The notes beneath the pieces are model-generated. The model saw nothing but the letters and a program-made list of their open reading frames with translations. It was not told the origin of the DNA and did no database searches. The position numbers and the translations under genes were made by a program. From Spirogloea muscicola (lineage: Eukaryota; Streptophyta; Zygnematophyceae; Spirogloeales; Spirogloeaceae), in contig WELB01000405.1 of the NCBI GenBank assembly GCA_009602725.1, positions 21,797 to 48,099 on the forward strand: a stretch of 26,303 nucleotides of DNA, given 5' to 3'. Every line of letters starts with the position of its first letter. Position 1 is the stretch's first letter. Shown here one piece after another: positions 1,855 through 26,303 of the stretch.

Positions 1855-4192
<2,338 letters not shown>

Positions 4193-5660: not shown

Positions 5661-6200
5661 AGTTGCTGTGACGTCAAATCTGACACAGACAGTCGGGGTA
5701 GTACAAGCTCAGCGTCCAGGATTATGGGCAGGTCTCAGCAACTTGCATGCTCTACTTGAATGAATCACTCAGTCTGGGCAAACCTGAGTTTATCGCTGCT
5801 TGCTGTCACACTGTGCAATGATCGACTAGCTTGAGTGTGCTACACGACGTGGATGCTTGACGACGTGGATGCTTGACGTCCATGAGCAGTTCCTGATCCC
5901 TCACGCCTATGGCAATCATCAGCATTTGCAACCTACTCGAGCTGGCCTACTCCATGAAGTACATTTTAAAAAGCTATACCAGAGTACGCCAGGAATCAGC
6001 AACCTAGTGTTACCTGGCCGATATAGAATCAGCAGGTGCGATGCAAAGTCCCGTGTTCCTAACATCGAAAGTTGCAGTAGTACACGCTGAGCTCTGAGCA
6101 GCCATCTATTTATGTTGTCGAGCATGATCGTGCCATGCACTTGTTGCAGCCTGTACATGAGTTACCACATGCTCAACTGTACTAGTGCGAGCTGCCTAAT
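5661..6200 (-). other. 3' flank of reductase pseudogene B
   Basis: Homologous to 1301-1854, with no recognisable coding content. The only frame shared with unit A is interrupted, which supports its being untranslated. Confidence 0.4.
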
Positions 6201-8528
<2,328 letters not shown>

Positions 8529-16304: not shown

Positions 16305-16585
16305 GCTGCTGCCTGCTGCTGCCGCCTCCGCCACAGCTTTGCTGCTGCCGCCTGCTGCCAGCCCGTCGCCGCAACTCATCGCTGCGGGTCCTGCCGGCTT
16401 CTCCGTAAGTCTATTGGTAGAGTCACCGCCCTAGGGCGGTGACTCAGGGTAAGACTTCCGCTGCGCTCTGTGCGCGTATGTGCGTTGGCGTTCTCCTGTA
16501 TGAGGGTTGTCTCCAAAACACCCTATGCTCGAATCCAAACTAGGACACCCTGACTCTAATTGTGTGTTTAGAAGCAGAGATGTCT
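16305..16585 (+). mobile_element. LTR 3' part, opposite sense, inside gypsy pol
   Basis: This is the downstream third of the LTR family, nearly identical to 19671-19950 read on its minus strand. It contains the CTGCTGCTGCC-rich region, GTAAGT at 16405, a perfect 26-nt palindrome at 16420-16445 (arms GAGTCACCGCCCT), and TCTAATTGTGTGTTTAG ending at 16571. It ends GCAGAGATGTC. It splits the minus-strand pol into an RT piece and an integrase piece. Confidence 0.75.
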
Positions 16586-16587
16586 TA

Positions 16588-16797
16588 CTGGAAGTGTCCG
16601 ACAGGCGTACAGAACGCTGACTTCGGAACGTCCTCAGGAGTGATATGAATTTGATGATAAACCCACTCTGCAAGTCGAGGGAGCTGAACACTTTAGCTTC
16701 CGCGAGACGATTGAAGAGATAATTGATACGAGGCAACGGGTATCGGTTCTTGACAGTGAGCTTGTCGAGGGCTCGGTAATCGATGCACATCCGATGG
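16588..16797 (-). pseudogene. Ty3/gypsy reverse transcriptase fragment
   Basis: The frame from 16790 reads [20 protein letters not shown], then [11 protein letters not shown]. One extra T shifts it, and the next frame reads [20 protein letters not shown] followed by GHFQ. This is the fingers/palm start of a gypsy RT; the YxDD box is absent. On the right it is fused directly to a 5' LTR fragment (16798-17011), and on the left it ends at the opposite-sense LTR piece. It is close in sequence to the RT at 25761. Confidence 0.85.
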
Positions 16798-19061: not shown

Positions 19062-19670
19062 TGTCACGTTCCTCCCATTTGAGCGTGCCTAACGGTGCGC
19101 GATAACCTTGCATGAGCGTATCGTATCTAACGTTGGGAGTCCGAAACGGTACGGGTAAGTTGGCTGCACTCGGTGTAGCTAAGTACGGGTTGAGGTCCCG
19201 GGCTCCGCACCCCGTGCGCACGCCTTGGGGCACGGCGTACACCCGGCGAGCTGGCCGGGTGGGTCAGCTCTCCCTCAGGCCAGCGCCCTGCAGGCTGGCC
19301 GGGTGGGTCAGCTCTCCCTCAGGCCAGCGCCCCTGCGGGCTGGCCGGGTGGGGCCAGCTCTCCTTCATCAGTAAGTATACTGCGGGCTGGCCGGATTGGC
19401 CAGCTCTCTTGGCCTCATGGCCGCATGCCTCGGTCCTTGTCCTTATGACCTCAGTCCCTTGTCCCCGTGAGCCAGGCTATTGGCCTGTCGCGCCACCTCC
19501 TTGGCGCTAGTCCCTGTTGAGCGCGCCAGTCTCTTGGACTCGCGCGCCGGCCTCTTGACGCTAGTCCCTTGGACTCGTGCTACAGGCCTCTGGCCCTGTG
19601 CGCCAGCCTCTTGTGTTCATCGTGTCCCCTTGTCAGGCCCGCCCCTCCGGGGATGGGCCCTGGGGGCGAC
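19062..19670 (+). mobile_element. LTR, first two-thirds (arm 1 of inverted pair)
   Basis: It starts TGTCACGTTCCTCCC and runs in plus sense through CTAACGGTGCGCGATAACC, GTAGCTAAGTACGGG, CGGGCTCCGCACCCCGTGCG, GGCGCTAGTCCC and CCCGCCCCTCCGGGGATGGG to GGGGGCGAC at 19670. It carries an internal tandem repeat of about 44 bp (from 19252 and 19296, CTGGCCGGGTGGGTCAGCTC). It stops exactly where the next LTR in the opposite orientation ends. Confidence 0.8.
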
Positions 19671-20564
19671 TGTGACATCTCTGCATCTAAACACACAGTT
19701 AGAGTCAGGGTGTCCTGGTTTGGATTCGAGCATAGGGTGTTTTGGAGACAACCCTCATACAGGAGAACGCCAACGCATATACGCGCACATAGCGCAGCGG
19801 AAGTCTTACCCTGAGGCACCGCCCTAGGGCGGTGACTCTACCAATAGACTTACAAAGAGCCGGCAGGGCCTGCAGCGATGAGCTGCGGCGACGGGCTAGC
19901 AGCAGGCAACAGCAGCAGAGCTGTGGCGGCGGCGGTTGCAGCAGGCAGCAGCGGGGCTGGCTAGGCAGCAGCAGGGCTGTGTCTCTCTCGGGCGTCGGTC
20001 GGACACTGGAGTCTGGCCAAGGCCTTCTACTTATAGCGGTTCTCCTGCCACCCCTCCCCTCAGGGTGTGACGAGGGTCGCCCCCAGGGCCCTCCCTCGGA
20101 GGGGCGGGCCTGACAAGGGGACACGATGGATACAAGAGGCTGGCAAACAGGGCCAGAGGCCTGTAGCACGAGTCCAAGGGACTAGCGCCAACAGGCCGGC
20201 GCGCGAGTCCAAGGGACAGGCGCGCTGCACAGTGACTAGCGCCAAGGAGGTGGCGCGCCAGGCCAATAGCCGAGCCCACGGAGCCAAGGGACTGAGGCCA
20301 TGCGGCCATGAGGCCGAGAGAGCTGGCCAATCCGGCAGCCCGCAAGGCGCTGGCCTGAGGGAGAGCTGATCCACCTGGCCAGCTCGCAGGGCGTGAGCCC
20401 GAGGCGTGCGGACGGGGTGCGGAGCCCGGGTCCCTCGAACCGTATTAGCAACACGGAGTGCAGCCAAGCTACCCGCACCGATGGGACTCCAAACGGTAGA
20501 TACGCTACGCTCATGTAAGATTATCGCGCACCGTTAGCACTCTCAAACGGAGGAAAACGTTACG
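19671..20564 (-). mobile_element. Complete LTR, about 894 bp (arm 2 of inverted pair)
   Basis: On the minus strand it starts CGTAACGTTTTCCTCCG at 20564 (family consensus TGTAACG) and ends GATGTCACA at 19671, so with one start substitution it has the TG...CA form of an LTR. Features in order are the G/C-rich repeats; a TATA box (TATAAG at 20035-20030); the CTGCTGCTGCC-rich region downstream of the presumed start; GTAAGT at 19853; an imperfect copy of the 26-nt palindrome (19813-19838); and TCTAACTGTGTGTTTAG ending at 19687. I see no matching target-site duplication. No internal region follows, so it is a solo LTR or a rearranged copy. Confidence 0.75.
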
Positions 20565-21239
20565 CTGGGGGATAAACTGGAGAGTGCAAGGGTGGAGCTG
20601 GGGGGGGAGAGGAACGTAGCAGAGCCAACAACCTCAGAAGCCGCCAGGTGATGGAGTCACTAGATCGTGGTGAGCCGACGACAATGCCAACTTGCGGGTC
20701 CATGTGGGGGGTCTCGGAGTCTGCATCGAGGTGGCCGAACTTGGATGTGCAAGCAGCTGGTCTGGCTCAACAGGCGCGGACACTCCTACGCCAAGGAACT
20801 CGGGCTCCGGTGGCGACGTTGATGTCGTGGTTGCCACAGGCGTGAGCACAATCTGAGGGCTGCGGCCCTCGAACGCGGCGGGGCCTCTGCACTCGCTGGA
20901 GCTGGGAGAGGGGGAGGAGCGGGAGGCGCCGCTGGGAGGTTGGGAAGGGTGGCCCCTGACGCAATGGCGGCCCTTAACGCAGCAGTCGTGCTGCGGGTGC
21001 CGTAAGAGCGAGAGGGGGGAAAGAAGGCGCACCTCCACCTTTCCCTGTTAGCTTGCCTGTTGCGTATTCCCTATTGAACGCCGCTCGTGGCAAAAAGAGA
21101 GAAGGCGCGCGGACCGCATTGCAAGAAATGCAGGCAAATTCAAGCCAATACATTCATTGTTCAGGCAGGATCTTGTGCAGAATAAACAAGGCTAGATAAA
21201 GACGGAGCCCTATGCTAAGGTGTCTAAGGTGACAGGGTG
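20565..21239. other. No recognisable gene
   Basis: A Pro/Ser-rich minus-strand frame (21038-20634) and other short frames are present, with low-complexity composition and no motif. It could be remnant gag-like sequence, but nothing supports that. Confidence 0.3.
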
Positions 21240-21460
21240 ACATAAGTACTCACGGGTGAGCACATACACATCCGACAAGCTTGGGGAGCTTAGGTTTGGG
21301 AAATCTGGGGAGCTTGGGGAGCTTGGGGAGCTTGGGGAGCTGAAACGCCGCCACGAAAGCCGATGGCCTGACTTAGTGCAGGCCCTGCACGCTGAGGAAT
21401 GGCCAGAGCTTGCGAGCGCTGCAACTAAGCAAAAGCCGGATTCAAGAACATGCAACAACT
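21240..21460 (-). pseudogene. LINE C-terminus relic with minisatellite
   Basis: The minus-strand frame ends SLSDVYVLTREY, matching SDLYVLTRGY of the relic at the window start. It is preceded by a Ser/Pro repeat (SSPSSPSSPSSPDF) coded by a 9-bp minisatellite, GGGGAGCTT on the plus strand, repeated about four to five times with variants between 21276 and 21341. The remaining upstream frame is not clearly LINE. Confidence 0.5.
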
Positions 21461-21479
21461 GCCTGCAAAGAGGCCAAGT

Positions 21480-21660
21480 GAGGCGAGCAGGCCAACTTCA
21501 ACGCCGATAAATCGTTAGTGCAGGTGTTTCGCATGCGCCTGATTACGTCATTCCAGCGGTCCATGGAACAACGCCTTGCATCTGCGTGCTGGCCGTGCTC
21601 TAGCTGCAGCCTCTGGCTTTTGTCAAAGGGATTGCTCTCCGGCGGCTAGTCTCTCTGTTG
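21480..21660 (+). pseudogene. LINE ORF C-terminus relic
   Basis: The frame contains FNADKSLVQVFRMRLITSFQ then RSME, matching FHAAGSLAQVYRMRL...LQRSMA. It then shifts frame, and the bases GTGCTGGCCGTGCTCTAGCT encode the equivalent of RAGRALAA out of frame. The terminal SDL.LLSRGY is lost. Confidence 0.6.
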
Positions 21661-22087
21661 TCAACTTCCTCCATCTCCTCTGGGTCGGCTACCTTGTTAG
21701 CATGGTTGGCTCCGACTGGATCGTCTCATCAATTGTTTTCTAATCACCACAGCTCGGCCACAACCCCCCTGCACATGCATACCCAAGAAGCACTGTACAT
21801 GCAAGTGCTAATCAAATCAGCCAGTTCAGCTGAGAGTTGGTGGTGCCGTTACTGGCAGGTGTACTGCCACTGTTTGGAAGATTCATGCCGTTGACCAGTA
21901 CCGAATGCCTTCAGCACGTAGTCTGCTATGCCAAATACTTCGTCGTACTAGTATGTGTGAGTTGTTCGAGGCTGCACAGCTGTACCAATAGTGACAGTCA
22001 CCCGACTCTGTACATCCTGCAGTGAGATAAAGGTTCGCGCATGGTGAAGGTGCAATAGCAGACATACATTGTGATTGATCAGAGTAT
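21661..22087. other. No recognisable gene
   Basis: Short frames only; no transposon landmark or rRNA similarity was noticed. Confidence 0.35.
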
Positions 22088-22114
22088 GTCAGCGGCCTAT
22101 TGAAGGCCGCTGAC
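22088..22114. repeat. Perfect 10-bp stem hairpin
   Basis: GTCAGCGGCC and GGCCGCTGAC surround a seven-base loop TATTGAA. It lies about 30 bp before a LINE C-terminal/tail remnant; any link to it is unknown. Confidence 0.8.
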
Positions 22115-22139
22115 AGCAGCCACATCGCCCGGCTGCAGC

Positions 22140-22275
22140 TGCCCCACCTCTCCTAAGTAGAGGTTACCAAGTAAGTCTGTTAGCGGAAAGCCTTGGGAAA
22201 TCGCTTTGTGGCCCCTTCGGAGCTTGTTATTTTCGGGCTGGCTGTTTACAGCCCTTGCCCCCATTAGGAGAGCCA
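22140..22275 (+). mobile_element. LINE C-terminal codons and 3' tail
   Basis: CTAAGTAGAGGTTACC encodes the LSRGY end (compare CTAAGTAGAGGTTACG in the minus-strand copy at 785). It is followed by TGTGGCCCCTTCGGAGC, the hairpin GGGCTGGCTGTTTACAGCCC (22235-22254) and TTGCCCCCATTAGGAGAGCC. A short, 5'-truncated insertion. Confidence 0.6.
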
Positions 22276-22279
22276 CTTC

Positions 22280-22740
22280 CTCTCCATTCTGGTTGCTCGT
22301 GGATGGCGGATGTTGTGTTCTGCCTTTCCAATTTGTCCTCTGACGTCCCCAACGACGCGAGACCACAGGGACTGAATTGAATCGCTGCTCACCATCGACA
22401 ATGCTCAGGGGGTCCTTCAGATGGCTTCCAGGGGAAAATTCAATAATAATATCTATATCGCCTCTGCTGCCGAGCTTATCATGTCCTCAGGTATTTTATT
22501 TGCCTTCTAAGTCTGGCCATCCGTTTGAGAGGTCTACGCAGACTTGACGTTGCCAAGTTGATACCGTGAGCTATGAATGTATCAACCATAAGCAGCTATG
22601 TAAAAGTGGGTGTTCATCTGACGATGAGCGTTTGCAGGCCGAACTGATTGAAGCTGTGACGTCCTGATCCCTATTCACGCAGTTAGAAGTGATCACGTCC
22701 TGAGTGGAGGGTTGAGAAGTTAACCCCCTACACTGAAGCA
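22280..22740. other. No recognisable gene
   Basis: No conserved frame or repeat was noticed. The stretch lies between a LINE tail and an LTR fragment. Confidence 0.35.
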
Positions 22741-22751
22741 TCACTACAATG

Positions 22752-23100
22752 CACAGCGGATGTCTTACCCTGAGGCACCACCAGAAGGCGGCGACTTTAC
22801 TGAGGGTCTGGCTTAGTAGCTGTCCCGGCATGGGGCGCAGCCATGGCACTTACGGAGAGCCGGCGATGTCCGCAGCAACGAGCTGCAGCGACGGGCTGAA
22901 CAGCAGACGACGGCAGCAGAGCTTGGCTGCGGCTGCGGCAGCAGGCAAGCAGGGGTATGCCTCTCTCTGGCCTCAATGATCAAAGTACCGAGTCCGCTCC
23001 CAGCCGACTGCTTGTGATGCTTCAATGCCACAATCCCTCCAGGATGTGGGAGCCGCTTCAAGGCCCACACCGTCAGGGGCGGGCATCACGAGGGGTGGTC
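22752..23100 (-). mobile_element. LTR 3' part, diverged
   Basis: Plus-strand GTCTTACCCTGAGGCACC, ACTTACGGAGAGCCGGCG, GCAACGAGCTGCAGCGACGG and GCAGCAGAGC repeat the order seen at 19800-19930. The GTAAGT donor-like bases are kept (22854-22849 on the minus strand), while the palindrome is degraded (CACCACCAGAAGGCGGCGAC). Confidence 0.6.
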
Positions 23101-23104
23101 GCGG

Positions 23105-23671
23105 GGACATGTCACGTCCACGGGAAGACCTCGAGGTAAGGTGGACAGAGAATGGCCACGAGCGGCCCGCAAGGGGCTTGTAGGAAAGACAGACGCTTCC
23201 ATGAGAGGGCGGTGATTGGGAGAGGCCAGCCCAGAAAAAAGTATCAACAGAGCTCGAAGGGGCCAGGAAGCGCTAAAGCACACACGGAAGCAAGTAGCTA
23301 CCTACCACACAGTAACCCCTACTTATCAGCCGCAGGTCGGAAAACTAGTCCCTGGCTAGGGCTAGAGGCGGCAGCAAGGGCACGACCTGCGCGGAGATGC
23401 AGCGCATGAGCCATGGACCGCTGCAGCGAGACGGCCCAAGCGCATGCGATGCACCTGCGCCAACGAGCCTGCTGCATGGAAGTCCACCGGCTCCCCAAGA
23501 CTGCAGCGGGCGATAGCGTGGCGGGAGAGTTTGTTGAGCAGCTCTAGCCACATAGCGCCCAGCGCACCGTGGTGTCAATGGCAAGCGGGAAGAACTCGTC
23601 ATCCGGCGGGTGGTCAGCCTGGTTCAGCCTGGATCCGTAGGACATGTGACGTCCACGGGCAGACCTCAAGG
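23105..23671. repeat. 32-bp direct repeats flanking a LINE
   Basis: GGACATGTCACGTCCACGGG (start of the copy at 23105-23136) and GGACATGTGACGTCCACGGG (start of the copy at 23640-23671) are direct repeats over 32 bp with three differences. They bracket the minus-strand LINE copy and could be an aged target-site duplication. Confidence 0.6.
23190..23625 (-). mobile_element. 5'-truncated LINE with tail
   Basis: On the minus strand from about 23615: DDEFFPLAIDT-like sequence, then after a frameshift WLELLNKLSRHAIAR, PVDFHAAGSLAQVHRMRL, a damaged SLQRSM...RA region, and GACCTGCGGCTGATAAGTAG-GGGTTAC encoding DLRLISRGY (23336-23310). The 3' UTR follows with CTGGCCCCTTCGAGCTC and the degraded hairpin GGGCTGGCCTCTCCCAATCA (23234-23215). 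It contains stops and frameshifts. Confidence 0.75.
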
Positions 23672-23759
23672 ATTTCGCAAGACAGGGGTCACGTCAAGCG
23701 GTACATCGCTGGCGGGAGAAGACAACGTGCCCGGGAGAATACACCGTAATAGCATGCTC

Positions 23760-24150
23760 CGCAGATGCCACATGTACGCGTTAAAAGGAGGGTAATGCGC
23801 CCAGACGGGTCAAACGCTGCAGAAGCAAGGCCAAAGAACACTTTGGCTAGATTAAATTGCAGATACAGTAATTTGACTGCTTCGAGCTTTACCATCCTAC
23901 TCAGTAAGTCAACGACGACAGAAGTCGTCGTTCCCTGCAGTTTTCGGAGGGGTCGAATCCTAGACCGACTTATACTTCCAAGGTACCTATAGGTGCTTCA
24001 TAGATCTGCATGCGTCACAACTTGAAACGTACGCCTCGACCGTCTTGTCCACGTTTGGCCAACAAACTGGCGTTTGCACCTTCGTCATGGTCTTAGCTGC
24101 CCATTTGTCCTCGAGATTGCAGTGTCAGACGGTATCACAATGCGAGTTGT
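23760..24150 (-). pseudogene. Ty3/gypsy integrase relic (zinc finger and core start)
   Basis: Minus-strand pieces in order are RIVIPSDTAIS (about 24145-24112); WPNVDKTVEAYVSSCDACR (about 24060-24005), which is the C-C half of the HHCC zinc finger with its YWP..(D)..V..YV.SC..C pattern; and, after a frameshift, SVVVDLLSRMVKLEAVK then NLAKVFFGLASA (about 23925-23830). The last piece corresponds to the core strand V.VDRL(S/T)KM.H..P. Stops and shifts are frequent. Confidence 0.72.
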
Positions 24151-24843
24151 TAGCTATCTCTGATCGGCCACACAGCGCTCTTCCCTCCCTGTGATCACCA
24201 ATGAAATCAGTGACTTCCGTGGACGAACTTCTTGGGCAAGGGATGATCGAGTTGCAAACCCCAGAAGCTAAGGAGCTGTGTATGGCTAGACGATTGAATG
24301 AGGTATTGTCTAGAAACCCTAGGGATGCCACTTCAACACCTTGAGCTTCTCAAAACGAATATATATGCCTCGGTACGTCGAGGCTCCATCTTCTTGAATC
24401 AATTTAAACATCTCGCACCCAATGAAGTGCGAGGTGGGGTGCGAGGCCTTTTGGAGATTGTCTGGAAGACGTCGTCACAATTCAGGGTACATCCTTGACC
24501 TCCGGCGCTACATTGGCAAAATGCTGTGTGGAGGAACAAATGTTTTCTCCTCCTACTGCCAGAAAAAGTGATTCCACGATATGCAAGCCTCCTGTGCTGT
24601 ATTGTATCACCTTCAAGACGGTGGGCATTCTAGCCGCGGTGTCGTCCTCTTGGTAAGATCACCGAACGGCCAAATTTATTGGGTAATTCACAAAGTCCAT
24701 GTGCTCCTCGACAATACATACTGGCATTGTCTTCGGTCAGCTGCGGCTTACCTGCAGAACGAACGGGTCGCCAATGTCGTCATAATCGTTTTCATTGTGG
24801 CAATTCGTCATGAGCTTGACTGGCAGCGTTGCAAGGCCGTTCT
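24151..24843. other. Unassigned stretch
   Basis: A minus-strand frame to 24331 may be eroded gypsy sequence upstream of the integrase. A plus-strand frame (24581-25138) runs into the methyltransferase region, but its first 85 residues have no recognisable motif. An inverted repeat CTCGCACCC...GGGTGCGAG lies at 24413-24446. Confidence 0.3.
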
Positions 24844-24866
24844 TGTAACGTTCCCTCCGTTTGAGC
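24844..24866 (+). mobile_element. LTR 5' terminus fragment
   Basis: TGTAACGTTCCCTCCG and the following TTTGAG match the start of the LTR family (at 17011 on the minus strand) at 21 of 22 positions, in plus sense. The similarity ends at once and methyltransferase-coding sequence follows. The LTR-to-DNMT join therefore looks like an internal deletion of the element rather than its original structure. Confidence 0.6.
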
Positions 24867-25600
24867 CACATACGGCGGCTGATGAGCCAGTTCCTAGAAT
24901 CGTTGACCCCGGAGGCCATCAAGGGGTGCCTCACCATCCTGCCTGCCGACATCCAGCTGGTGGGCCTACACCACCTGAGGGGGTTGGGACAGGTGGACCT
25001 GGTGGTCTCAGGCTGGGATTGCCAGGGGTATTCCAGCGCTGGTGTAGGCCGAGGGTTGGCAGACCACGGCCTCACGGCTCTTTTTGGAGCTGGAGCGTGT
25101 CTCAGCGCTGCTGCAGGGGGGGCAGGAGACCCTCCTAGCATACTTATCAGAGAACTTGACGGCAGGCGAAGACCGCTGCGAGAACGTGCGGAGTGACTTC
25201 CAGGTGGTCAAGAGCCGCATTGGGGGCGGCGTGCCTCTGGACGCAGCTGTTCTGGGCAGCCGCGCGCACCAGCTGCGAATGAGTGGACAATCTGGCGCAG
25301 CCGAAGTTGATGGCAGCTGCGGCCGCGTCGGTCAAGCGCCCAGCCGGGCTGCTAGTGGCGGACATATTGGACCCGGGGAGGGTGCCTCAGCCAGTGGAGA
25401 GTTACGACATTCCTCCGTTCGCGCTGTGCAACAAGGTGGGGCAGCGACAGGCGGCGCTGACCACGCTGGTAAGCTACCCAGCGTCCTCTGCATTCCGGAA
25501 TGATGTTGGACAACACTACGCAGCAACTGGGATAGCCGGCGCCGACGAGCGGGTGCGGCCGTTGGGCTTCCAGACCGGCACAACCGCAGCTCCTGGGTTC
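24861..25600 (+). pseudogene. Retrotransposon C5-cytosine DNA methyltransferase domain (frameshifted)
   Basis: A C5-cytosine DNA methyltransferase transfers a methyl group from S-adenosylmethionine to cytosine. Three frames join end to end. Frame one (24861-25082) has LPADIQLVG, then VDLVVSGWDCQGYSSAG (motif IV with the catalytic Cys; Asp replaces the usual Pro before it) and GRGLADHGLTALF. Frame two (25084-25281) has LERVSALLQ, YLSENL (motif VI, ENV-like) and LDAAVLGSRAHQLR. Frame three (25283 onward) has VADILDPGRVPQPV, NKVGQRQAALTTLVSYP and GFQTGTTAAPG. The shifts are at a T5 run (25081-25085) and near 25279. The N-terminal SAM-binding motif I is missing, cut by the LTR fragment. It is followed within 30 bp by gypsy pol in plus sense. 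It is inactive as written. Cytosine methyltransferases carried by retrotransposons are known in some algae and dinoflagellates. Confidence 0.82.
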
Positions 25601-25619
25601 TGCGTCATCGAGACAGTTC

Positions 25620-26303
25620 GTGGGCGGATTTCTCGGATATGTTTCCCGATGCTCTTCCAGACGGTTTGCCTCCTGACCGAGGCGTGGCTCATACAATTCC
25701 ACTGGAGCCGGGCGCTACGCCGCCATACCATCGGATGTATCGACTGAGTCCTGTCGAATTATGGAGATGCAGTCCCAAGTGGAGGAACTGCTACAAAAAG
25801 AGCACATTGAGCCTTCCCAGTCGCCGTACGGTGAACCAATCCTCTTCGTGAAGAAAAAGAATGGTAGTCTTCGAATGTGCATCGATTATCGAGCCCTGAA
25901 CAAGCTCACTGTCAAGAATCGGTATCCTTTCCTTCGAATTGACGACCTGGTCGATCGTCTAGCGGGAGCTAAGGTGTTCAGCTCCCTCGACTTGCAAAGC
26001 GGTTATCATTCGATTTGCATCACTCCTGAGGACGTCCCGAGATTGGCATTTTGTACGCCACTCGGTCACTTCCAGTTCCAGGTGCTCAGCTTTGCTATAA
26101 CCATTGCACCTACCGCATTTCAGAATGTGATGACAAAAGTCTTTGGCCCCTTACTGGCCCCCTACTTTGACTTTGTGCTGGTCTATTTGGATGACATACT
26201 GGTGTTTGATAAAATGCCTGAGGAGCACGTACGATACTTGCGGCAAGTGCTCCAATTACTGCGTGCAAATCAGTTATATGCCAAGAGATACAACTCTGTA
26301 ATT
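25620..26303 (+). CDS. Ty3/gypsy reverse transcriptase (partial, runs off window)
   Basis: The stretch before the RT reads DFSDMFPDALPDGLPPDRGV then PPYHRMYRLSPVE (25626-25755), the usual lead-in of gypsy RTs. A one-base shift near 25755 follows. From ATG 25761 the frame is open to the last base (181 codons): [69 protein letters not shown] and the catalytic YLDDILVF, then HVRYLRQVLQLLRANQLYAK. No protease is seen between the methyltransferase and the RT. RNase H and integrase would lie beyond the window. The element may be one pol-like protein with DNMT before RT. Confidence 0.9.

Follow-up and report, generated by a model that had tools for sequence, protein, structure and literature searches.

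Dnmt3-type DNA methyltransferases (DNMTs) have been described within Gypsy elements of the streptophyte alga Klebsormidium nitens, and further DNMTs within DIRS and LINE elements of Symbiodinium (de Mendoza et al. 2018, PMC5890265), a report that is also cited in PMC12344493. Such elements pose the puzzle why a parasite carries a gene of the silencing system of its host. According to that report, retrotransposon DNMTs carry out de novo CG methylation, and the SymbioLINE DNMT methylated no DNA when it was tested in yeast (PMC5890265). A second known system that bears on the results below is the leaky stop codon of TMV. The sequence CAR YYA after the stop is reported to be essential for its readthrough, in which UAG is decoded as Tyr and UGA as Trp (PMC2754532).

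The stretch of DNA analysed here, referred to as the window, comprises 26,303 nucleotides of Spirogloea muscicola, namely, positions 21797-48099 of contig C405, which is 48099 nucleotides long and part of a 153-Mb assembly of 471 contigs. The last base of the window is the end of the contig, and the window can therefore not be extended to the right in this assembly. From its sequence, the initial annotation had proposed a DNMT-RT Gypsy family in this alga with the window as a member. The proposal failed for the window but proved right elsewhere in the genome, where families A and B have the order protease-DNMT-RT. It is highly probable that the window contains a degenerate chimera, in which a DNMT piece of family B is joined to pol sequences of family R, and that the source families A and B are represented elsewhere by DNMT-Gypsy elements with a readthrough-like stop codon. 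The chimera itself encodes neither an intact DNMT nor a fusion protein.

Composition of the DNMT-RT stretch in the window

All DNMT peptides on which the initial annotation was based are present on the plus strand, but they are spread over three reading frames, with WDCQGYSSAG in frame 3, SENL and GSRAHQLR in frame 1 and NKVGQ, TLVSYP and GFQTGTTAAPG in frame 2. DMFPDALPDGLPPDRGV lies in frame 1 and the RT of the window in frame 3. The unbroken DNMT-RT frame that was looked for in the window is absent, as no frame joins the two. What had been described as a full Gypsy RT is a genuine reverse transcriptase with 87 bits for RVT_1 in the open frame 25761-26303 (Pfam), but it is ended by the contig end. 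The DNMT fragment alone reached 11.7 bits against a Pfam cut-off of 22. The observation that no gag or protease is visible in the window holds.

The DNMT-RT stretch begins with 22 bp (24844..24865, plus strand) that correspond to the start of a family-R Gypsy LTR. Contig C119 has two full-length LTRs of this family, bracketed by the 5-bp duplications GTACG and AAAAG, which begin alike with 2 and 3 differences. An internal piece of a family-B DNMT follows, which is of the Dnmt3 class and has a length of 735 bp (24866..25600, plus strand); it is frameshifted and devoid of motif I and the C-terminal motif when compared with 28 family-B loci by blastn. The homology to long family-B copies has its edges at 24866/24867 on the left and at 25596-25600 on the right (blastn), and those copies run on both ways as their own sequence. 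Both edges (24866 and 25600) fall inside the DNMT domain of the family-B copies. Although the fragment is too damaged for Pfam alone, its similarity at the DNA level leaves no doubt about its identity. As DNA, it has 34 matches in the genome, the window included, eight of which besides the C119 counterpart are approximately whole-length with 77-83% identity. The junction between families B and R (25601..25611, plus strand) is contained in neither alignment and shows, by eye, a possible TGG microhomology. It is followed by the protease/RT linker and the reverse transcriptase of family R up to the contig end (25612..26303, plus strand), with homology to the fetched R copies starting at 25612 or 25615. 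Between the R LTR start and R pol, the stretch lacks the remainder of the 5' LTR as well as gag and protease of this family. Template switching or break repair presumably joined the B DNMT piece to the R sequences.

An ordinary target duplication was ruled out for the 22 bp left of the DNMT, which are the start of an R LTR; the neighbouring GTTCT (left of 24844), as a candidate target duplication flanking the chimera, did not recur after any LTR end in C119:338000-352000. At one R LTR end on this contig (L060, C119:349516), the LTR is followed by TTGGTATCAGAGG, which resembles the site where initiator tRNA primes plant LTR elements. The window also contains a second broken family-R RT fragment (16431-16790, minus strand; RT homology 16587-16794, 79.8% to the C119 copy), and several R LTR pieces lie near it at 15.5-17 kb and at 19-20.5 kb. 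Frames resembling quinone oxidoreductase or zinc alcohol dehydrogenase by eye were noticed at 1855-4040 (minus strand) and 6112-6932, with a similar second block nearby.

Family R is a high-copy Gypsy family, of which 40 of 416 candidates were scored. Apart from the window locus and the corresponding one on C119, ten loci were retrieved together with their 1.5-kb upstream regions, and tblastn detected no DNMT within this distance at any of the ten, an outcome that the initial annotation itself had named as counting against its reading. Three R loci were translated at the DNMT-equivalent place and contained a gag zinc knuckle and protease remains (L042 and L047) or protease remains (L041). An RT of type R (93-100% identical) adjoins a family-B DNMT with equal orientation at the window and C119, but at none of 28 other family-B loci; at one of these, L037, an R piece of 41 residues is oriented the other way. 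The RT of the window is about 35% identical to those of families A and B, which share 52-57% with each other. A quick RT tree with 46 rows was built from homologues gathered as DNMT relatives and without another Gypsy outgroup; in it, the window groups with family R (support 100) and away from the DNMT-bearing elements. A single element across DNMT and RT in the window was ruled out by the frames, the homology edges and the other R and B loci: the two parts do not come from one family.

Part of the window (19669..26303, 6.6 kb, plus strand) is colinear with C119:338622-346267 at 96% identity (blastn). That the same DNMT/RT join occurs on two contigs could be taken to mean that the window does belong to a DNMT-RT Gypsy family, further copies of which escaped detection, the more so as only 40 of the 416 candidate R copies were scored and ten others fetched. 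The colinearity of C405 and C119, however, indicates one locus, duplicated or allelic, and the join is missing from the ten other R loci as well as from the 28 other family-B loci, where L037 comes closest with its short inverted piece; since DNMT and RT also share no frame, true membership is very improbable. An assembly artefact would fit with a join at a contig end in repetitive DNA, but the same join with its flanks is found inside the 401-kb contig C119 at 96% identity, and one copy only has a solo-LTR insertion: the target site AAAAG is empty in the window (24564..24568) and occupied by a solo R LTR in C119. Such an artefact is thus extremely improbable. Two independent chimeric insertions were ruled out, too, because both copies sit in one colinear block. 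The chimera is therefore one event seen on two contigs, and the copies on C405 and C119 would belong either to different haplotypes or to chromosomes that were duplicated. The genome of S. muscicola has been reported to be triplicated. The chimera of B and R is an example of how motif reading in repeat-rich DNA can mistake the accidental junction of two elements for a single gene.

DNMT-bearing Gypsy families A and B

In the genome, 71 DNMT matches were obtained with a Pfam DNMT search and 132 with a family-A protein search, which are pieces and not elements. Protease, DNMT and RT occur in this order on one strand at four of eight family-A loci that were fetched with 1.5-kb flanks (C2, C134, C341 and C351). 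For family B, 28 loci other than those of the window and C119 correspond to 24 places, and five of these places have the same arrangement (C326, C25, C123, C21 and C290), while six further places have protease and DNMT and three have DNMT and their own RT. The protease is clearly upstream of the DNMT at 11 of the 24 places, and the family's own RT is downstream at 8. It is the protease that is downstream at two places, both on C15, and the arrangement is mixed at two (C77 and the second C123 place). All other places have the DNMT alone or an RT piece in the opposite orientation.

The first frame of the family-A copy C2 contains a zinc knuckle with 18.6 bits (cut-off 20.8), a protease with 22.9 bits (cut-off 28.2) and a DNMT with 46.7 bits (cut-off 22) and its next frame RVT_1, RNase H, H2C2, rve (integrase core) and a PHD finger (Pfam). 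The protease of the family-B copy C361 reached 35.8 bits, above the cut-off of 24.3. Long open frames common to protease and DNMT (704-1411 aa) were found in C2, C134, C341, C351 and C361. Both families have Gypsy pol downstream of the DNMT, with the full RT-RNase H-integrase set seen in family A (C2) and pol recognised by the RT in family B. The coding part of family A on C341 is surrounded by a direct repeat of approx. 300 bp with 98.3% identity (L054:5767-6067 and L055:4362-4661), which is a candidate terminal repeat; its right-hand unit appears to have been interrupted when a further insertion, with an 8-bp duplication, took place later. No convincing pair of terminal repeats was found at C351 and C134. 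In family A, the PHD finger forms the C-terminal end of the integrase frame (L053:765-3875), and it is likewise listed for P0003, P0004, P0018 and P0029. Such a finger may guide integration to chromatin. The annotated protein P0033 (eukprot, id SM000012S25399, s12:814352-819161, minus strand) matches family B, and since a family-B match (C12:814862-815069, minus strand) lies inside its coordinates, P0033 is the C12 copy of this family. An identifier built in the same way (SM000027S09592) is assigned to the zygnematophycean alga S. muscicola in PMC12290401.

A profile of ten relatives was compared with PDB sequences and found DNMT3A as best match with 84.6 bits (E 5e-23), followed by HhaI and chain 4onj with 45.9 bits each, DRM2 with 41.1 bits and DNMT2 with 24.9 bits; chain 4onj is named only 'DNA methyltransferase'. 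By this sequence comparison, the DNMT of families A and B is of the Dnmt3 class. In the catalytic motifs, Cys, Glu and Arg are invariant across ten aligned rows, five of them from this genome and the family-B copy L033 not among them. Ka/Ks of the DNMT was 0.153, 0.155, 0.211 and 0.245 in the four computable pairs, five of the nine within-family pairs (family A) being saturated. The DNMT of families A and B is under purifying selection.

The stop codon between DNMT and RT

The DNMT/RT boundary of family A was read in 20 copies, namely, four loci and 16 short pieces that were picked from the 132 family-A search rows because their match ran near the DNMT end. A stop codon is found at the same place in 17 of the 20 copies (14 TAG and 3 TGA). 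The six bases following it are CAATTA (6), CAATCA (5), CAACCA (3), CAACGA (1), CAATCG (1) and CCATCA (1), and three of the 17 stops are thus without the exact CARYYA. The copies without a stop are C134 (TAC) and C365 (GAA), both with the CARYYA hexamer kept, and a degenerate one on C38 near 12 kb. The frame is open on either side of the stop in C2, C341, C351 and 12 of the 14 stop-bearing short pieces. In family B, the boundary was located by the peptide downstream of the stop at six distinct places, all of which have TAG followed by CAACCA (5) or CAATCA (1). All six copies are degenerate, and none can be read through the boundary in one open frame: the net frame is maintained in C25 and C142, which contain additional stops, and the others are frameshifted. 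P0033, as read from the annotated protein and not from DNA, has Trp at the stop place, and the C12 copy therefore seems to have lost its stop.

Taken over both families, CARYYA stands directly after 20 of 23 stops. As background, it followed 4 of the window's 1844 stop triplets and 41 of 15603 in a set of 62 loci that overlap and include some of these sites (0.2-0.3%). Among the window frames with at least 80 codons, it followed none of 126. The copies are related by descent, so that these counts are not independent events. The codon after CAA encodes Leu (TTA), Ser (TCA) or Pro (CCA), but the pattern YYA is maintained behind UAG as well as UGA and in both families, a sign of selection acting on the nucleotides. 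Compared with readthrough of the TMV type, the combination of stop and hexamer is present in both families and a frame open on both sides in family A, but not in family B. From this context, the conserved stop at the boundary is probably leaky. Viral contigs were tried as a source of the stop context in other species and rejected, as all 53 loci were distant (≤44% identity) and one query had no match.

Families A and B might alternatively be host DNMT3 genes that happen to adjoin Gypsy elements, in line with the host Dnmt3 class of the enzyme. Such a neighbourhood by chance would have to account for order and strand of protease, DNMT and RT being kept at 9 places, for long frames shared by protease and DNMT in the five copies C2, C134, C341, C351 and C361 and for homologues in other organisms that lie within Gypsy polyproteins as well, and it deserves next to no credence. 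More serious is the proposal that DNMT and RT are in separate ORFs bordering at the stop, in which case reinitiation, a subgenomic RNA or splicing would yield the RT and CARYYA would have been inherited without function. The copies share descent, the Closterium relatives P0027 and P0031 fuse DNMT and RT without a stop, and P0033, C134 and C365 have none at this place, all of which would suit a mere border. The varying codon after CAA with YYA kept, in two families whose RTs are 52-57% identical and with both UAG and UGA, speaks against it, as does the low background of CARYYA (0.2-0.3%), and two separate ORFs are considered unlikely.

With a leaky stop, the first frame (Gag-protease-DNMT) would be the main product ending at UAG or UGA, and a minority of ribosomes would read through to RT-RNaseH-integrase(-PHD). 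Because the DNMT is on the Gag side of the apparent leaky stop, large amounts of it would be produced along with the structural protein and not with the polymerase, and such minority readthrough would lead to a DNMT made at Gag level and packaged. Bulk amounts, if true, point to a role in the particle or on cDNA. The packaged DNMT would methylate the cDNA of the element or its new insertion, as proposed for other retrotransposon DNMTs. The initial annotation had suggested that the element could thereby control its own methylation or imitate the mark of its host. The complete scenario can only be offered tentatively and is rather doubtful as a whole: a leaky stop would provide DNMT in Gag amounts and keep the polymerase scarce, the many DNMTs of the particles would methylate their own cDNA prior to integration, the PHD finger on the integrase side would direct it to chromatin, and the layout would be old and inherited in some streptophyte DNMT-Gypsy elements.

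Relatives and comparison with described systems

Three protein searches, each of which scored approx. 8000 candidates sharing most words, retrieved homologues from Closterium, Marchantia, Calypogeia, Sphagnum, Klebsormidium (weak, E 5e-5) and metagenomes as well as the protein Mesvir1, which was taken as Mesostigma viride. Among eight homologues checked, the DNMT is located before the RT in three (P0027, P0017 and P0031) and after RNase H in five (P0004, P0018 and P0028 by Pfam, P0021 and P0029 by our own profile). In P0004, P0018 and P0029, which reach the integrase, the DNMT precedes it. Two Closterium proteins, P0005 and P0043, have DNMT-like stretches together with a PF07727 domain, which we take to be the Ty1/copia RT; a DNMT is possibly present in a copia element, too.

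A quick DNMT tree with 64 rows contained 8 loci of this genome. Of the 70 P proteins, 14 were omitted as their DNMT domains were short or disrupted, and the length filter removed no further one. The five proteins with the DNMT after RNase H fall into a clade of 19 rows (support 100) and Closterium forms another clade of 19 (support 100). Family A (100) is apart from family B (97), which groups with liverwort proteins (81), and the deep forks are weak. The liverwort proteins have no RT and are hence outside the RT tree. For K. nitens, one truncated annotated protein was found (P0070), which was too short for placement in the DNMT tree. DNMT and RT trees both separate family A, family B, Closterium and the type with the DNMT after RNase H, which suggests a long-lived partnership and not an accident.

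Among the open-licence papers listed in literature searches and judged by titles and abstract openings, neither a DNMT-bearing Gypsy element of Spirogloea nor a leaky stop in such elements was found. The closest described system is KnitGypsy-Dnmt3, which resembles families A and B in its streptophyte algal host, its Gypsy-type domains and a Dnmt3-class DNMT in the element polyprotein with the key residues kept (PMC5890265). Purifying selection is common to both, with Ka/Ks under 0.2 in KnitGypsy-Dnmt3 (PMC5890265) and 0.15-0.25 in A and B. The two differ, by published description and not by sequence, in that KnitGypsy-Dnmt3 has its DNMT in the Pol polyprotein ORF and a DIRS-like repeat structure (PMC5890265), whereas A and B have the DNMT with the protease before the stop and the RT after it. 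In the main text of PMC5890265, the word 'readthrough' is absent and the sole 'stop codon' passage concerns mutated Symbiodinium elements. SymbioDIRS-Dnmt3 and SymbioLINE-Dnmt share with A and B a retrotransposon-encoded DNMT, but they are DIRS and LINE elements, to which Gypsy is called distantly related (PMC5890265).

The Closterium proteins P0027, P0031 and P0040 belong to the same Dnmt3-like family, and the DNMT is likewise upstream of the RT in P0027 and P0031 (Pfam order). Unlike in A and B, DNMT and RT of P0027 and P0031 are in one annotated protein, and the Closterium DNMT clade is separate and well supported. The leaky stop of TMV has the same hexamer directly after it (PMC2754532), and UAG is the commonest stop in A and B; the TMV stop is located in the replicase of a plant RNA virus (PMC2754532), while the stop of A and B is at a retrotransposon DNMT/RT boundary and its signal is putative. 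The DNMT-bearing Gypsy element was thus known already from Klebsormidium nitens, and new in families A and B is a stop codon between DNMT and RT that resembles a readthrough signal and would be passed by a minority of ribosomes.
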